Shown here one piece after another: positions 35,110 through 43,802 of a DNA stretch of 64,000 nucleotides. The number at the start of each line of letters is the position of its first letter. The first letter of the stretch is position 1. The notes under the pieces are model-generated. The model worked only from the letters and a program-made list of their open reading frames with translations. It was not told the DNA's origin and did not search any database. The position numbers and the translations under genes are program-made. Source of the DNA: Caldilineales bacterium (lineage in GTDB: Bacteria > Chloroflexota > Anaerolineae > J102); the NCBI GenBank assembly GCA_019695115.1, contig JAIBAP010000003.1, positions 62,001 through 126,000 of the forward strand. The letters are read 5' to 3'.

Positions 35110-35387
35110 CTCGTTCTTTCGAGTCCTTCTGGCGCCATGCGCTCGACCAATTTCGGCCTGAGAGTGCTGAAGAAGCTCGCATCCGCCCCGCAGTGTTGGC
35201 GGCGCGAATTGCTTCATAGCCAACAATAGGACAGAAGATGTCAGGGGAACGAAAAGAACTGCCTTCAGGGTGTAAAGAAAGTATCAAGATCGAGTCCCAA
35301 GTTGAACTGAGAGGCATGGTCAAAGTCTCTGTCGGCGGCGTCCCCAGTCACCGGTTGCCGCGGTGAGCTTGAGCGCCTCCCTATCGC
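35110..35387. other. divergent intergenic region, no gene seen
   Basis: The gap between the KimA-like gene (minus) and the SNF2 gene (plus; promoter at 35388) holds no convincing small gene. A GATACT hexamer on the minus strand near 35277-35282 could be a -10 for the transporter, but no good -35 box accompanies it. Confidence 0.4.
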
Positions 35388-35416
35388 TTGTCGGCCCTGC
35401 CCCGGCGGTGTATCAT
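35388..35416 (+). promoter_or_regulatory. promoter for a leaderless SNF2 mRNA
   Basis: TTGTCG (35388-35393), exactly 17 bases, then TATCAT (35411-35416). The GTG at 35424 begins 8 bases after the -10 box, about where transcription should start. Confidence 0.6.
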
Positions 35417-35423
35417 CTTCGCC

Positions 35424-37202
35424 GTGCCTACCCCTGCTGCGACGCTCGCACCCCAAACCCGTCTGGCGCCGGGCGCCAACGCCATCCTGGCAGATGTGGC
35501 TGCCGGTCATCTGAGTCCGCTCGACGCTTACCAGCTCAAGCTTATGGCCTATCGCCTGCAGCTGGCCGCAGGCTTCGATGACCTGTTGGCGCTGGATGCT
35601 CTCGATTTCCAGCCCTTCGACTATCAGATTCGGGCCGCGCGCACGGCGTTGCGGCGGTTTCGCGGGCGGGGGATGTTGTGCGACGAGGTGGGGCTGGGCA
35701 AAACCATCGAGGCCGGCCTGGTGTTGAAGGAATATCTGCTGCGGCGAATGGTCGAGCGCGTGCTCATCCTCACCCCGCCGGGGCTGGTGGAGCAATGGCG
35801 CGAGGAACTGGCGACCAAGTTCGGGCTGAGCGATTTCGTCGCCAGCAGCGACGAAGCCTTCCGCAGCCTGGGCGCGGGCGCCTGGGCCAGCTTCCCGCGC
35901 GTCATCGCCTCGCTGGCCACCGCCCGGCGCAGCGAACACCGCCAGGCCATCACCACCCAAACCTACGATCTGGTCATCGTCGATGAGGCCCACCATCTCA
36001 AGAACCGCGCCTCGGCCTCATGGAAGCTGGTCAATGAGCTGCAAAAGCAATACATCCTCCTGCTCACGGCCACGCCGGTGCAGAACAGTCTGGCCGAGCT
36101 TTATAACCTGGTGACGGTGCTCAAACCCGGCCAGTTGAAAAGCCCCAGGGAGTTCAGCAAGCAATTCGTGGTGCGCGGCGACCCCCGGCTGCCCAAGAAT
36201 CGCGGCCACCTGCGCGAACTACTGAGCGATGTCATGGTGCGGCACTCGCGCGGGCAGATCAGCCTGCAACTGCCCCCGCGCCGCGCCCACACCGTGCATT
36301 TGCGGCTGCACGCCGACGAACACGCCCTTTACGACCGCATCAGCGGCTTCACGCGGGGGATGATGCGCGACGAGGGCCTGGCCAGCGCCCATCGCTTTGG
36401 CCTGCGCACCCTGTTGCACGAGGCCGGCAGCAGCGCCGCCGCCACCCGCTCCACCCTGCTCTCGTTGGCCGAGGTGTCGGGCCTGGCCGCGCACCGCCGC
36501 GAGCTGATGGACATGGCCGGGCAAGCGGCGGCGGTGCAGACCTCGGCCAAGGCCGAAGCATTGAAGAAGGTTTTGGAGGCGCAGGCCAAAGGGGCGGGTC
36601 AGCACGAGAAGGTCATCGTCTTCACCCAATTTCGGGCCACCCAAACCATGCTGGCCGCACAGATGGCCGCCTGGGGCATCGATTTCGCCCTCTATCACGG
36701 TGGCCTCACCGCCGCCCAAAAGGATGCCGCCATCCGCGCCTTTCACGACCACCAGCCGGTGTTGCTCTCGACCGAGGCCGCCGGCGAGGGCCGCAATCTG
36801 CAATTCTGCCGGGTGATGATCAATTTCGACCTGCCCTGGAATCCGATGCGGATCGAGCAGCGGGTGGGCCGCATCCATCGCGTGGGCCAGGATCGACCGG
36901 TGGACATCTTCAATCTGGCCGCGGAAGACACCATCGAAGACGATGTGCTCCAGATCCTCGACCGCAAGCTCAACATGTTCGAGCTGGTCATCGGCGAGAT
37001 GGACATGATCCTGGGGCAGATGGCCGATGAGCGGGATTTCGAGGACATCATCCTCGATATCTGGACACAGGCTCAGACCCAGCAGCAGTTCTCGGAGGAG
37101 ATGGCGGCGCTGGGCGAGGCGCTGGTGCAAGCCCGCAGCGAGTATCAGCAGGTGAAAGACTACGACGAAGCCTTGTTCGGGGAGGATTTCAGCACCGAAT
37201 GA
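35424..37202 (+). CDS. SNF2/RapA-like DEAH-box ATPase
   Basis: Predicted 592-residue superfamily 2 ATPase. Motif I is CDEVGLGKTIEAG (Gly-Lys-Thr at 92-94), motif II is DEAH (187-190), motif III LLTATPVQNSL, and the second RecA fold has VIVFTQF, LSTEAAGEGRNLQ and QRVGRIHRVGQ. These are SNF2-family motifs closest to RapA/HepA, without the N-terminal Tudor-like domains of E. coli RapA. Such proteins translocate on double-stranded DNA and remodel or recycle protein-DNA complexes such as stalled RNA polymerase. GTG 35424 is chosen because of the promoter spacing. The stop overlaps the next start (ATGA, 37199-37202), implying coupled expression. Confidence 0.93.
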   Translation: MPTPAATLAPQTRLAPGANAILADVAAGHLSPLDAYQLKLMAYRLQLAAGFDDLLALDALDFQPFDYQIRAARTALRRFRGRGMLCDEVGLGKTIEAGLVLKEYLLRRMVERVLILTPPGLVEQWREELATKFGLSDFVASSDEAFRSLGAGAWASFPRVIASLATARRSEHRQAITTQTYDLVIVDEAHHLKNRASASWKLVNELQKQYILLLTATPVQNSLAELYNLVTVLKPGQLKSPREFSKQFVVRGDPRLPKNRGHLRELLSDVMVRHSRGQISLQLPPRRAHTVHLRLHADEHALYDRISGFTRGMMRDEGLASAHRFGLRTLLHEAGSSAAATRSTLLSLAEVSGLAAHRRELMDMAGQAAAVQTSAKAEALKKVLEAQAKGAGQHEKVIVFTQFRATQTMLAAQMAAWGIDFALYHGGLTAAQKDAAIRAFHDHQPVLLSTEAAGEGRNLQFCRVMINFDLPWNPMRIEQRVGRIHRVGQDRPVDIFNLAAEDTIEDDVLQILDRKLNMFELVIGEMDMILGQMADERDFEDIILDIWTQAQTQQQFSEEMAALGEALVQARSEYQQVKDYDEALFGEDFSTE

Positions 37203-39067
37203 GCAAACTGAAGACGCCTGCCGCGCCCACGCACGAACGCCTGGATATCCCCGGCTTTGTCCTCGGCTACCTGGAAAGCCAGGACAGCCTGGTCGCGCCC
37301 CCGGCTTTCGGCGTCTACGAGGTGGTGATGCCCGACGCCCTGGCCGCCGGCTTCGGTCTGGCGGCCTACCAGCGGCTCAGTTTCGAGCAGACCGAGGCCG
37401 AGGATGTGCTGGCGGTCGGCGTCGGCCATCCCCTGCTGGAAACGATTGCCGAACGCCTGACGGCGCAGCCGGCCAATGCCCAGGGTTTCCTGAACAGTGT
37501 GCGCCTCGACAAGAAGGGGCTGGCAGCGTTGGCCCAGAAGACCTTCACCTTCCCCAACGCCCGCCTTGTCCCCAAGCCCAACGCCATCGAGCAGGCGGCG
37601 CTGCACCACTATCTGCGCTTCAATTTCAAGGTCACGTTCGACAGCGAGGAAAAGCAGGAGCAACTGGCGGCGGCGGTGATGGATTTGCAGGGCGGGTGCG
37701 CGGTGCGCCAGGCCGAAGTGCTGGCCCGGTTGAATACCTTCGAATCGGAGCCTGGCTTTGGCGACCTGGCGGTGGCGGCGCCGCGCTGGCTGGGCGCGGG
37801 CAAAGCACTGGCCCCCGACACCCTGGCTGCACTCTTGTCACGCGCCGAGACTGCCCTGCGCGCCGACCTGGCCGACCGCTTGCAGGCGCTGCAAGCGCGC
37901 ACGCAACGACACCTGGACCTCGACCTGGCCCGCATTGGCGACTATTTCGATGACCTGGAAGCCGACCTGCATCGCCGTCGTCAGCGCCTGCCGCCGGAGG
38001 AGCGCGAACGAGAAGGCGGCAGCGATGACAAGCTGGCGGCGTTGCAGGCCGAGCGCGCGGCCAAGCTGGCGGATGTGACCGGCCGCTATCACCTGCGCCT
38101 GACGCTGGAATTGGTCAATGTCCTCATCCTCGTCCAGCCCAAACTGCTGACGCCGGTGGAGATCGGCAACCGCACGGTCACGGTCAGCCGCGTGGTGGTC
38201 TGGGACCCGCTGGTGCATCGGCTGGAGCCGCTGCTCTGCGATGTGTGCGGCGAGCCGGGCGAAGGGCTGCATCTGTGCACGGGCGGCCATTTGGCCCACG
38301 GCGGCTGTCTGGCGCCGCAGTGCATCGACTGCAAGCGCGTCTATTGCCGGCTGTGCCGCGAGCAGATGCGCCAGTGCGCCGTCTGCGAGCAGCCGGTGTG
38401 CCAACACAGCCTGATCACCTGCCCCACGTGCAAACGCGGGACATGCCGCGAACACCAGAACTTGTGTCATGCGGCGGATGGCGAGCCGGCCCGCCTGCCG
38501 GCTGCGGCTCCCAGTAGCCCGCCACCCCCGCCATCCCCACCGCCGCCACCCGCGGCCAGGCCGCCCACCACGGCCGCCAAACCCACCCCACCCCCCGCCG
38601 CCCGCGGCCGGACGCCGCCCAAAACGGTCAAACCGCCGCCGGCAGCGACCGCGGCGCCGGTGACGAAAGGGGTGCGGCTCAATGTCGATATCTTCGAAGA
38701 TCGGCCGGAAATCGTTGCCTATGTGATGCGCACAACCAATCGCTCCCTGGCCATACGCACCTTCACCCTGACGCACGAAGGCATCCGCGTCGAGTGCGAG
38801 TGCGAAAAAGGCCTTTGCCGGGCCAATGGCATCATTCACCGGCCGGCCAACGCCCAGCACATCAGCGAGCAGATCAACAGCTTTCTCGCCGACCTGCGCC
38901 AGGAGTATCTGGTGCCATCTCGACACACGAGCTATTTCTACATCCTCGGCCAGCGTCTCCGCGAGGGGCAGACTTTTGTGTTGCCGGCGGTGTGGCGGGC
39001 GGAAGAGCGTCTGCACGCGGCGGAGGCGGGCTTCGAGGCGCTCCTGAAGCGGCGGCAGGGGCGGTGA
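37199..39067 (+). CDS. coiled-coil and cysteine-cluster protein coupled to the SNF2 ATPase
   Basis: Predicted 622-residue protein without a family name I can give. Residues 1-210 are globular, 213-300 form a charged coiled coil (RAETALRADLADRLQALQAR onwards), and about 300-345 are beta-rich (ELVNVLILVQPKLLTPVEIG). Residues 347-423 hold 15 cysteines in several CxxC pairs (347/350, 375/378, 383/386, 393/396, 408/411), suggesting RING- or B-box-like zinc sites. A proline-rich linker (about 436-487) leads to a C-terminal domain. The coiled-coil and beta region resembles segments I associate with RapA-type helicases. The gene starts inside the SNF2 stop codon, so the two products probably act as a complex. 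Confidence 0.85.
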   Translation: MSKLKTPAAPTHERLDIPGFVLGYLESQDSLVAPPAFGVYEVVMPDALAAGFGLAAYQRLSFEQTEAEDVLAVGVGHPLLETIAERLTAQPANAQGFLNSVRLDKKGLAALAQKTFTFPNARLVPKPNAIEQAALHHYLRFNFKVTFDSEEKQEQLAAAVMDLQGGCAVRQAEVLARLNTFESEPGFGDLAVAAPRWLGAGKALAPDTLAALLSRAETALRADLADRLQALQARTQRHLDLDLARIGDYFDDLEADLHRRRQRLPPEEREREGGSDDKLAALQAERAAKLADVTGRYHLRLTLELVNVLILVQPKLLTPVEIGNRTVTVSRVVVWDPLVHRLEPLLCDVCGEPGEGLHLCTGGHLAHGGCLAPQCIDCKRVYCRLCREQMRQCAVCEQPVCQHSLITCPTCKRGTCREHQNLCHAADGEPARLPAAAPSSPPPPPSPPPPPAARPPTTAAKPTPPPAARGRTPPKTVKPPPAATAAPVTKGVRLNVDIFEDRPEIVAYVMRTTNRSLAIRTFTLTHEGIRVECECEKGLCRANGIIHRPANAQHISEQINSFLADLRQEYLVPSRHTSYFYILGQRLREGQTFVLPAVWRAEERLHAAEAGFEALLKRRQGR

Positions 39068-39077
39068 AGCCGGGGAT

Positions 39078-39105
39078 AATTTTTATGAAACCTTTCATAA
39101 AAATT
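39078..39105. promoter_or_regulatory. AT-rich perfect palindrome next to the radical SAM promoter
   Basis: Arms AATTTTTATGAAA (39078-39090) and TTTCATAAAAATT (39093-39105) flank two bases, touching the first base of the -35 box. It is one of the most AT-rich spots in the window. It could be a repressor operator (TGAAA-N-TTTCA resembles LacI-family sites), an upstream promoter element, or a terminator for the SNF2 operon. Confidence 0.6.
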
Positions 39106-39133
39106 TGACCTCCCCCCTCCTCGCCCCTATAAT
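39105..39133 (+). promoter_or_regulatory. near-consensus promoter of radical SAM gene 1
   Basis: TTGACC (39105-39110), exactly 17 bases, then a perfect TATAAT (39128-39133). The predicted transcription start is about 39140, the first base of the heptamer array. Confidence 0.85.
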
Positions 39134-39139
39134 CCCGAA

Positions 39140-39286
39140 GGTCGGAGATCGGAGATCAGAGATCGCCTCACGCCTCACGCCTCACACCACACGTTTCACG
39201 CCTCACGTTTCACGCCTCACACCACACGTTTCACGTTTCACGTTTCACGCTTCACGGAATACGGAACACGGAACACAGAACACGCC
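39140..39286. repeat. 21-unit 7-bp array forming the 5' leader of radical SAM gene 1
   Basis: Twenty-one consecutive heptamers in unbroken register. The unit changes along the array from GATCGGA (first units) to TCACGCC/TCACGTT/TCACACC (middle) to ACACGGA (end), always keeping the period of 7. Related units occur at 63726-63863 and 50658-50678. Confidence 0.95.
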
Positions 39287-39303
39287 TCCCCACCTGCCCC
39301 CCC

Positions 39304-40806
39304 ATGCGCATCATCCTTGCCAGCCCCGAAGCCAAAGTCTGGTCCGAACGCAAACACATCCCGCTCGGCCTGGGCTACCTTGCCGCCGTCCTGCGCGACG
39401 CCGGCCACCAGGTCATGATCTATGACGCCGCCATCGAAGACGACCCGGTCGATTTCTACATCGAGCAGGCCGCAACCGCCGGCAAGCCATTCAAGCTCAT
39501 CGGCATCACGGCGGCCACACCGCTGATCGGCGACGCCTGGAAGATGGCGAAGACGGCCAAAGGCTATGGCCTGACCACCATCCTCGGCGGCCCCCATCTC
39601 ACCATCCTCCCCGGCGAATCGCTCGGCCCCGAACACCCCTATGTGGACTACACCTTCAAGGGCGAGGCCGAAGATGGCATCCTCACCTTCGTGGAGGCGC
39701 TGGAGCGAGGCGAGAAGCCGGAGGACAGAGACATCCCCGGCCTCAACTTCCGCCGCGGGGATGAGATCGTCGTCTCGCCGATCTCGCCGATGATCGAAGA
39801 CCTGGACAGGCTGCCCTTCCCTGCCCACGACCTGTTCAAGATCGACAGGTACACCAACTTGCAGCCGCTCACCGACGGCCTGGACACGCACGCCCGCTCG
39901 TTCACCATCATCACCAGCCGCGGCTGCCCCTACAAGTGCACCTTCTGCTCGAAGCCGGTCACGGGCGACACCTGGCGCGGGCGCAGCGTCGAGAATGTGG
40001 TCAAAGAATGGCGCTGGCTGGTGCAAGAGTTGGGCGCCACCGAGATCGGCGTCACCGACGACATCTGGAACCTGAAGCTGCCGCGGGCGAAGGAACTCTG
40101 CCGGAGATTGGTGGAGGAAGGGCTGAATACCGTGCCCTGGGTGACGGTGCACGGGATGAAGGTCAATCACACCGACCCCGAATTGTTCCACCTGATGAAG
40201 GCGGCCGGGGCCAAGCGCGTGGGTTTTGGCGTCGAGAACGGCGACCCCTGGATGCTGAAGAACGTCATCCGCAAGGGCCAGACGCTGGACATGGTGCGCG
40301 ACGCCTTCCGTTGGGCCAAAGCCGCCGATTTGCAGACCATGGGCTTCTTCATCTTCGGAATGCCGCGCGACACCGCGGAGACGATGGAGAAAACGATCCA
40401 GCTTGCCCTGGAACTGGACCCCGACCTGGCCAATTTCATGCTGGCGGCGCCCTTCCCCGGCACCAAGATGTGGGATATGATCAAGGAAGGCGGCGAGGTC
40501 TTCGCCCACGAGTGGCCCGACTACGCCATCCACGACCAGAAGGCGCGCTTCACCATGCACGACGGCGCCTACGACCCCGACCTGGTGGTGCGCAAGTGGC
40601 GCGAGGCGTACCGTCGCTTCTATCTCTACCGGCCCAAGCGCGTGTGGGAGAAGATGTCGAAGAAGAGCTTCTGGACCGAGCTGCCGAGCACCGTCAGCAA
40701 TGCCCGCCGCTTCTTCATCGGCCGCCAGGATCAGCACGCCCCTGCCCGCGTCAACCCCGAAGAGCCGGTGACGAGTATGAAGGGGTTGATCGAGCGGACG
40801 TTGTGA
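39304..40806 (+). CDS. B12-binding-type radical SAM protein 1
   Basis: Predicted 500-residue enzyme. The N-terminal ~130 residues have the Rossmann-like cobalamin-binding fold ([43 protein letters not shown]), although the classic cobalamin DxHxxG motif is not clear. The radical SAM core carries CxxxCxxC as CPYKCTFC (Cys208, 212, 215), then FGVENGD and [16 protein letters not shown]-terminal ~90-residue extension follows. Relatives perform methylations, ring rearrangements or other radical reactions in cofactor, lipid or natural-product pathways; the reaction here is unknown. A second such enzyme is encoded 1 kb downstream beyond a toxin-antitoxin insertion. Confidence 0.92.
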
Positions 40807-40850: not shown

Positions 40851-41120
40851 ATGGAAATCGAGTTCGATCCAGCCAAGAACGAGAAGAACATTCTCGAACG
40901 CGGCTTGCCGTTTACGCTGGCGCACGAATTCGATTTCACAACAGCCTTACTTGATATAGACGTTCGGAAAGACTACGGCGAAACTCGTTACCGAGCACTT
41001 GGTTTACTCAATGGCAGGCTACACGTCTTGATTTTTGTGGTGACGACCGTAGGTATCCGCGTCATAAGCTTGCGCAAAGCGAACAAACGCGAGGTGGGCT
41101 TTTATGAATCACGAACCTAA
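40851..41120 (+). CDS. brnT: BrnT family toxin
   Basis: Predicted 89-residue type II toxin with a RelE-like fold. [28 protein letters not shown] and the late [16 protein letters not shown] are the family landmarks; BrnT is a ribonuclease that blocks translation. The DNA is more AT-rich than the flanking radical SAM genes, consistent with acquisition. It overlaps brnA by 17 bases, the usual toxin-first brnTA order. Confidence 0.93.
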
Positions 41121-41382
41121 CCCCGAATTGATAGACGACGAAAATCCGGAATGGACAGAGGAAGAGGTGCGTGCTGCGATTCCTTTCACTATGTTGCCGG
41201 AATCGTTGCAGCTAAAGCTCGCGCCCCGAAAACGCGGCCCTCAGAAAGAGCCGATCAAAGAACGCATCACTATCCGCTTGTCGCGCGACGTTGTGGAGCA
41301 ATTTCGCGCGACGGGCGAAGGGTGGCAGACGCGCGTGGACGTTGCTCTACGGGAGTGGCTCAGAACCCACCAACCTGCGTGA
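41104..41382 (+). CDS. brnA: BrnA family antitoxin
   Basis: Predicted 92-residue antitoxin. After an acidic N-terminus (PELIDDENPEWTEEEVRAA) the chain has KERITIRLSRDVVEQFRATGEGWQTRVDVALREWL, the ribbon-helix-helix DNA-binding fold of BrnA. It neutralises BrnT and represses the shared promoter. It overlaps the end of brnT. Confidence 0.92.
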   Translation: MNHEPNPELIDDENPEWTEEEVRAAIPFTMLPESLQLKLAPRKRGPQKEPIKERITIRLSRDVVEQFRATGEGWQTRVDVALREWLRTHQPA

Positions 41383-43242: not shown

Positions 43243-43560
43243 GTGGACATCGAAGCCATTGGCGATGCCATACGCGGTGGTCGGATTCGTATCACCGACC
43301 ACGCGGATGAGGAGGCGCATGCCGACAACCTTTCGTTCGATGAAATCTACCTCAGCGTTTTTCGTGGCGAAATTATCGAAGATTACCCGGACGACAAACC
43401 CTATCCAAGTTGCCTGATTTACGGCAGCACTTTTGCCAATGAGCCAGTGCATAGTGTTTGGGCGTATAATCGGGATGTTCGCTGGGCCGTACTCATCACA
43501 GTCTACAGGCCAGACCCACGCCGGTGGATAAACTGGCGCAACAGGAGATCAAAGAAATGA
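43243..43560 (+). CDS. DUF4258 protein, probable toxin of a toxin-antitoxin pair
   Basis: Predicted 105-residue protein starting at GTG 43243. The pattern IRITDHADEEAHADNLSFDEIYLSVFRGEIIEDYPDDKPYPSCLIYG, then VHSVWAYNRDVRWAVLITVYRPD, matches DUF4258, a RelE-superfamily-like fold. The last bases overlap the next gene (ATGA type), and the partner is a YgiT-type zinc-finger protein, a common toxin-antitoxin arrangement. Base composition is more AT-rich than in the radical SAM genes. Confidence 0.85.
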   Translation: MDIEAIGDAIRGGRIRITDHADEEAHADNLSFDEIYLSVFRGEIIEDYPDDKPYPSCLIYGSTFANEPVHSVWAYNRDVRWAVLITVYRPDPRRWINWRNRRSKK

Positions 43561-43802
43561 TGCCATTCACAAAATGTCCAGTTTGTGGAGGCGAAATCAT
43601 CGAGAAGGAAGTTGAAAAACTGTTACGCGGTGGCGCCAACACAGCCGTGCTAAAGGTCCACGCCGAGGTCTGTCTTCGCTGCGGCGAACGGCTTTATCCT
43701 CAAGAAACAGTCAGGCGCTTCGAGCAAATCCGTATGCAACTGGAACGCCAGGACGTGCTTGGTTTTCAACCTCTCGGTCAGTCGTTTCAAGTGGCCGTGT
43801 GA
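43557..43802 (+). CDS. YgiT-type zinc-finger protein, probable antitoxin
   Basis: Predicted 81-residue protein. The N-terminal zinc finger has CPVCGGEIIEKEVEKLL and a second CLRCGE pair, as in the N-terminal domain of MqsA/YgiT. The C-terminal helix (ETVRRFEQIRMQLERQ) is short, without a full Xre-type DNA-binding domain. ATG 43557 (or 43560) follows AGGAG and overlaps the DUF4258 stop, so the pair is translationally coupled. Confidence 0.88.
   Translation: MMPFTKCPVCGGEIIEKEVEKLLRGGANTAVLKVHAEVCLRCGERLYPQETVRRFEQIRMQLERQDVLGFQPLGQSFQVAV

Follow-up and report, generated by a model that had tools for sequence, protein, structure and literature searches.

A conserved two-gene SNF2 module with a cysteine-repeat partner, found from haloarchaea to cyanobacteria: a putative split HmaA/RapA-type translocase

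The window, that is, the whole 64,000-nucleotide stretch of DNA that was analysed, carries a gene for an SNF2/RapA-type ATPase followed on the same strand by a gene for a cysteine-rich partner protein (Table 1), with a permease, a KdpD-like kinase and radical SAM genes, named by eye, as neighbours. The two genes share the four-base ATGA overlap reported in a preliminary description of this DNA, an arrangement suggesting that their translation is coupled. The single promoter proposed there for both genes is only loosely supported: two sigma-70-like matches were found in the searched stretch against 0.5 expected, a weak one lies directly before the GTG start of the SNF2 gene, and the scan found none before the partner gene.

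Table 1. Features of the SNF2–partner locus, in window positions
Feature	Position	Strand	Remarks
Segment missing at the matching place in a congener	35110–39077		alignment matches up to 35109 and again from 39078
Weak sigma-70-like promoter match	35388–35416	+	9/12 match; directly before GTG start
SNF2/RapA-type ATPase subunit	35424–37202	+	592 aa, GTG start
Walker A, GLGKT	about 35691–35705	+	sequence reading
DEAH box	about 35982–35993	+	sequence reading
ATGA overlap, SNF2 stop/partner start	37199–37202	+	
Partner (accessory) subunit	37199–39067	+	622 aa, ATG start, 19 Cys
Predicted counterpart of the one-chain HmaA/DrmD/RapA-type C-terminal half	37199–38236	+	partner residues 1–346; hhalign, aligned reach 11–287
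Predicted helical hairpin/coiled coil	37814–38134	+	partner residues 206–312; single-sequence model
Zinc-ribbon-like start and three C-x2-C-x4-C-x2-[C/S/H] units	38237–38470	+	partner residues 347–424; units at 375, 393, 408
Proline-rich linker	38486–38659	+	partner residues 430–487
C-terminal CxCEK domain	38657–39064	+	conserved in nine long partners

The SNF2 subunit matched the Pfam families PF00176 (E 1.5e-37) and PF00271 (E 1e-23), and its Walker A motif, DEAH box and helicase C motifs read as intact. Motor relatives within the genome's family are 70–73% identical. RapA structures are the best solved relatives, and the match to 6bog starts at SNF2 residue 65 and RapA residue 155. About 64 residues thus precede the match, against 154 in RapA, which bears out the earlier statement that the N-terminal RNA-polymerase-binding domains of RapA are missing. 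The best library matches of the motor were DISARM DrmD, BrxH, HmaA and DpdE, all below curated cut-offs where such exist; the top NCBIfam match was DrmD (E 4.7e-81) and the top PADLOC match the model BrxHI|BrxHII (E 3.4e-81). Despite the similarity of its SNF2 core, the motor is not DrmD, because it scored 273.5 bits against a cut-off of 610 for NF038317 (263 against 950 for NF038318); the RapA model NF003426 was likewise missed, at 206.2 against 576 bits.

The partner had no known domain family above cut-off in Pfam, NCBIfam, PADLOC or PHROGs, and eight of its relatives had none in Pfam; since no library named the partner, the module is without a model in those used. A profile search of PDB sequences with the partner did not recover RapA; its best match, a tape-measure protein (E 0.001), falls in the coiled coil and was discarded as unrelated.

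Profile–profile comparison gave a clearer result. A profile of 18 partners trimmed to residues 1–345 was aligned by hhalign with the regions that follow Walker A in E. coli RapA and in one-chain helicases taken from plasmids or from the same class. With 15 one-chain rows as template, partner residues 11–259 aligned with template positions 583–798 (probability 97, E 1.1e-10, score 91.4), and against 11 Hma/DrmD-like rows residues 11–287 aligned with 582–839 (score 89.5). Reversed profiles scored 19–20, 100 column shuffles at most 25.2 and 100 ten-column block shuffles at most 40.6. Single comparisons with E. coli RapA (711–793, E 0.015) and with a Nostoc HmaA-like protein (709–795, E 2.3e-4) were weak and fell in the same place as the profile match. 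Nine one-chain proteins were assigned by PADLOC, six as HmaA and three as DrmD.

These alignments show, at the level of sequence, that the first ~290 residues of the partner have their homologue in the C-terminal half of one-chain HmaA/DrmD/RapA-like helicases, so that the pair would be one helicase architecture split over two genes. The alpha+beta and coiled-coil domains that follow the core in RapA and HmaA would accordingly be supplied in trans. An HPL(V/L) motif lies at partner residue 77, and the hairpin (residues 206–263/275–312) is the only confident part of the single-sequence partner model, with block pLDDT up to 91 and a whole-model mean of 41.6. The coiled coil, the cluster of 15 cysteines and the separate C-terminal domain described earlier were all found again. 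The earlier suggestion that the partner is a targeting factor needs revision: its first ~290 residues correspond to a helicase C-terminal half and are no unrelated add-on, and the cysteine cluster and the last domain stay as targeting candidates.

The 15 clustered cysteines lie between residues 347 and 423. Scanning for the unit C-x2-C-x4-C-x2-[C/H/D/S] found three units, laid out as in the window, in 10/10 long partners, zero in the short partners (333–397 aa; L023–L025, L032–L035 and L041), and two overlapping matches in L030. Haloarchaeal arrays are expanded, with eight strict units in the Halocatena partner (44 Cys), 25 in that of Halorhabdus (1095 aa, 115 Cys), where most spacings are 15 residues or multiples of 15, and 33 in that of Haloferax lucentense (1245 aa, 146 Cys). 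The stretch before the units is similar in the window and Halocatena (tblastn, residues 292–428, E 4e-5). The ligand pattern suggests that the units bind zinc. A Planctomycetota record (L002) with a match to the cysteine pattern (34% over 56 residues) was set aside. On plasmid pSVX82-3 the Haloferax lucentense partner ORF (L040:9572-13309) is unannotated, and the table there has only small opposite-strand genes.

The C-terminal CxCEK domain had no Pfam match above cut-off and none among PDB sequences in a profile search, and is absent from the short partners and from L022. By eye it had been considered a nuclease; this was dropped, as the PD-(D/E)XK-like spacing is not conserved.

Examination of partner-bearing loci shows that the two genes travel together. 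Relatives of the partner occur in 4/20 family, 10/60 class and 3/61 phylum-sample genomes. Counting the window's own, these amount to 14 different genomes, and in 14/14 the gene immediately upstream, on the same strand, encodes a split-type SNF2 protein. In a plasmid collection 982 records matched the motor; nine of 12 places opened carry the pair (in Nostoc, Oscillatoria, Chondrocystis, Rhodovastum, Halocatena, Halorientalis, Natronorubrum, Halorhabdus and Haloferax lucentense) and three encode one-chain SNF2 proteins. The pair is therefore kept as neighbours in 23/23 loci examined (14 chromosomal, 9 plasmid), in hosts that include bacteria, cyanobacteria and haloarchaea, and the proposal of a conserved two-protein SNF2 machine stands. 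By coordinate reading, the intergenic gap is at most 82 bases, and 10 of the 23 pairs have the four-base overlap. A literature search gave no recognised account of a split RapA-like pair or of the haloarchaeal cysteine-repeat partner.

Searching in reverse, with the motor first at E 1e-60, matched 11/60 genomes. One of these, G048, was without a partner match and has broken partner pieces downstream, array included; assembly errors have perhaps broken the frame. The SNF2 protein at that locus (L177:4582-8580), where the partner frame is in pieces, has an added N-terminal CxxC ribbon. G040 holds one extra motor fragment that runs off the contig end. Viral scans returned no partner relatives and at least 80 SNF2 loci; the five inspected had no pair, and two (L073 and L077) encode one-chain proteins, 1194 and 1197 aa long, with other genes alongside.

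In a tree of 35 motor cores (20 split and 15 one-chain rows, 200 bootstrap trees), one branch separated all 20 split motors from all 15 one-chain motors, with 98/98 support, and was recovered in 96% of bootstrap trees. The split rows were picked by similarity to the window's motor and several one-chain rows are long-branched, so the tree shows one group of split motors and not its age. E. coli RapA is long-branched and not a member of the split clade.

The module is accessory: a congener (G019, 98% complete) lacks the pair and has an empty site, at which the two flanking genes are direct neighbours, the permease lying at 88924-90879 (80% identical) and the radical SAM gene occupying 91249-92748 (91%). 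About 3.97 kb in the window corresponds to ~190 bp in the congener, reflecting either gain in the window lineage or loss in the congener.

This patchy presence, the empty site and the plasmid copies are unlike a housekeeping factor, and bear on whether the pair could be a RapA-like machine for the release or recycling of stalled RNA polymerase or of some other transcription complex, in which the partner replaces the N-terminal contact of RapA. We consider such a role unlikely. RapA structures are the closest solved relatives of the motor, RapA has the same layout, and the accessible part of PMC12839542 draws a parallel between BrxHII and RapA; against this, the N-terminal part of RapA is absent from the SNF2 subunit, and RapA itself branches outside the split clade.

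Neighbouring genes were scanned with PADLOC (E 1e-15 or better) at 11 of the 14 chromosomal loci (58 ORFs, 74,058 bases), leaving out L014, L023 and L029 (two short contigs, and L029, later found to lie beside JetA); the genes taken in the window included 39304-40803. Controls were 59 ORFs in 74,046 bases of the same genomes, from one fixed contig per genome, two of the stretches being shorter than 600 bases. Neighbours matched 78 models, coming from few proteins, against two in the controls, both generic. Defence genes were found at 4/11 loci: Wadjet JetA/JetC/JetD at L028, AbiEi/AbiEii at L021 and L022, and a PglX-like methylase upstream of the pair at L020; a general ATPase at L008 was not counted as defence. 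The contrast with 0/11 control stretches (~0.05, one-sided) is suggestive only. Some of the loci were scanned before the controlled comparison was designed. Defence genes, with which the preliminary description proposed to look for clustering, adjoin the pair at these four loci and at L029, a twelfth locus outside the comparison; the scanned neighbours in the window include none. Several relatives' loci sit among housekeeping genes. Haloarchaeal pairs occur near an HmaB-like methylase, an Mrr-like nuclease or PbeA-like helicases. At L028 and L029 the pair directly adjoins the Wadjet genes, co-directional in one and divergent in the other.

The Wadjet genes at these two loci, together with the plasmid copies of the pair, would fit a genome- or plasmid-maintenance remodeller that clears proteins from DNA or aids SMC-type complexes for the chromosome or the carrying plasmid. 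We regard this as quite unlikely: Wadjet adjoins just 2/14 chromosomal loci, and plasmid neighbours vary from case to case. It is very unlikely that the pair is an incomplete leftover, or a component, of some larger DISARM, BREX-related or Hma system whose methylase and ATPase have been lost in the window. DUF1156 methylases and AAA ATPases (HmaB match) do adjoin some haloarchaeal pairs, and L020 has its PglX-like methylase. Most pairs, however, have no such methylase or ATPase (the scan of the window's neighbours showed none of the DUF1156 type), the two genes by themselves stay intact across large distances, and the split motors form a clade apart from the 15 one-chain rows.

On balance, and with modest confidence, we favour a split HmaA/DrmD/BrxHII/RapA-type DNA-translocating machine that acts as a mobile guard against foreign DNA. 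Among the targets named earlier (stalled polymerase, a nucleoid complex or foreign DNA), foreign DNA is best supported because of the accessory distribution, the empty site, the defence neighbours and the closest relatives, which belong to defence systems; RNA polymerase or a nucleoid complex is a less likely target. Counting against the putative defence role are the absence of defence genes from the window's scanned neighbours, the housekeeping surroundings of several relatives, the slight neighbour contrast (4/11 against 0/11) and the commonness of AbiE.

Comparison with known systems places the pair close to HmaA, of the Hma or DUF499-centred BREX-related systems, which has a collinear SNF2 core followed by alpha+beta and coiled-coil domains and which gave the strongest profile match to the partner. 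HmaA, however, is a single chain of about 1150-1200 aa accompanied by HmaB/HmaC, whereas the pair has two genes, no methylase or DUF499 ATPase, and an extra zinc array and CxCEK domain. BrxHII of type 3 BREX has the same domain order, as far as given in the accessible part of PMC12839542, but is one chain with an N-terminal Tudor domain and BREX genes, none of which the window pair has. E. coli RapA shares the SNF2 core and a C-terminal half of equal layout; unlike the pair it is a single gene with N-terminal domains, and its direct sequence link to the partner is weak. A precedent for a helicase divided into a core and a zinc-bearing part is DISARM DrmA/DrmB, described in the accessible part of PMC12458937 as a YprA helicase core and a zinc-bearing C-terminal part that are encoded by adjacent genes and form a complex, although they belong to another helicase family (YprA/DUF1998).

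In the favoured translocase model, the SNF2 subunit would be an ATP-driven motor moving on double-stranded DNA and bound to the partner, which would provide in trans what comes after the motor in one-chain relatives, namely two alpha+beta domains and a coiled-coil hairpin, and would add the zinc-knuckle array and, in the window's lineage, the further C-terminal domain. The array may form an extended arm reading a DNA, RNA or protein target, recognition being shared with the last domain. By stripping or stalling invader complexes, the module would keep out phages or plasmids, either by itself or next to Wadjet, AbiE or methylase systems. Neither protein was found to contain a nuclease or effector, so any cutting would have to come from a neighbour or from the C-terminal CxCEK domain.

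A more specific version, put forward tentatively, makes the pair a mobile defence system in its own right, made up of just two genes and present in both bacteria and archaea. In this split HmaA/RapA-type translocase the array of 15-residue zinc units, with 3 to 33 strict copies, would read the target and evolve in length like a recognition module. Whatever its function, the pair shows that the helicase architecture common to several anti-phage systems and RapA also occurs in a conserved two-gene form, with members ranging from haloarchaea to cyanobacteria, in which the non-motor half is free to evolve. The expandable zinc array offers a direct idea of how such motors may choose their targets.

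Further features lie downstream of the pair. A palindrome, TTTTTATGAAA..TTTCATAAAAA, is followed by a near-consensus promoter (TTGACC-17-TATAAT) at 39078-39133, before the radical SAM gene; both are kept in the congener (L196), and the palindrome is likely an operator. Short near-repeats (CACGTTTCACGCCTCA-like) occupy 39141-39290, in the gap that separates the pair from the radical SAM gene. By eye, and with no PADLOC match, a BrnT/BrnA-like toxin–antitoxin pair was recognised at 40851-41382 and a YgiT-like zinc-finger antitoxin at ~43524-43802.
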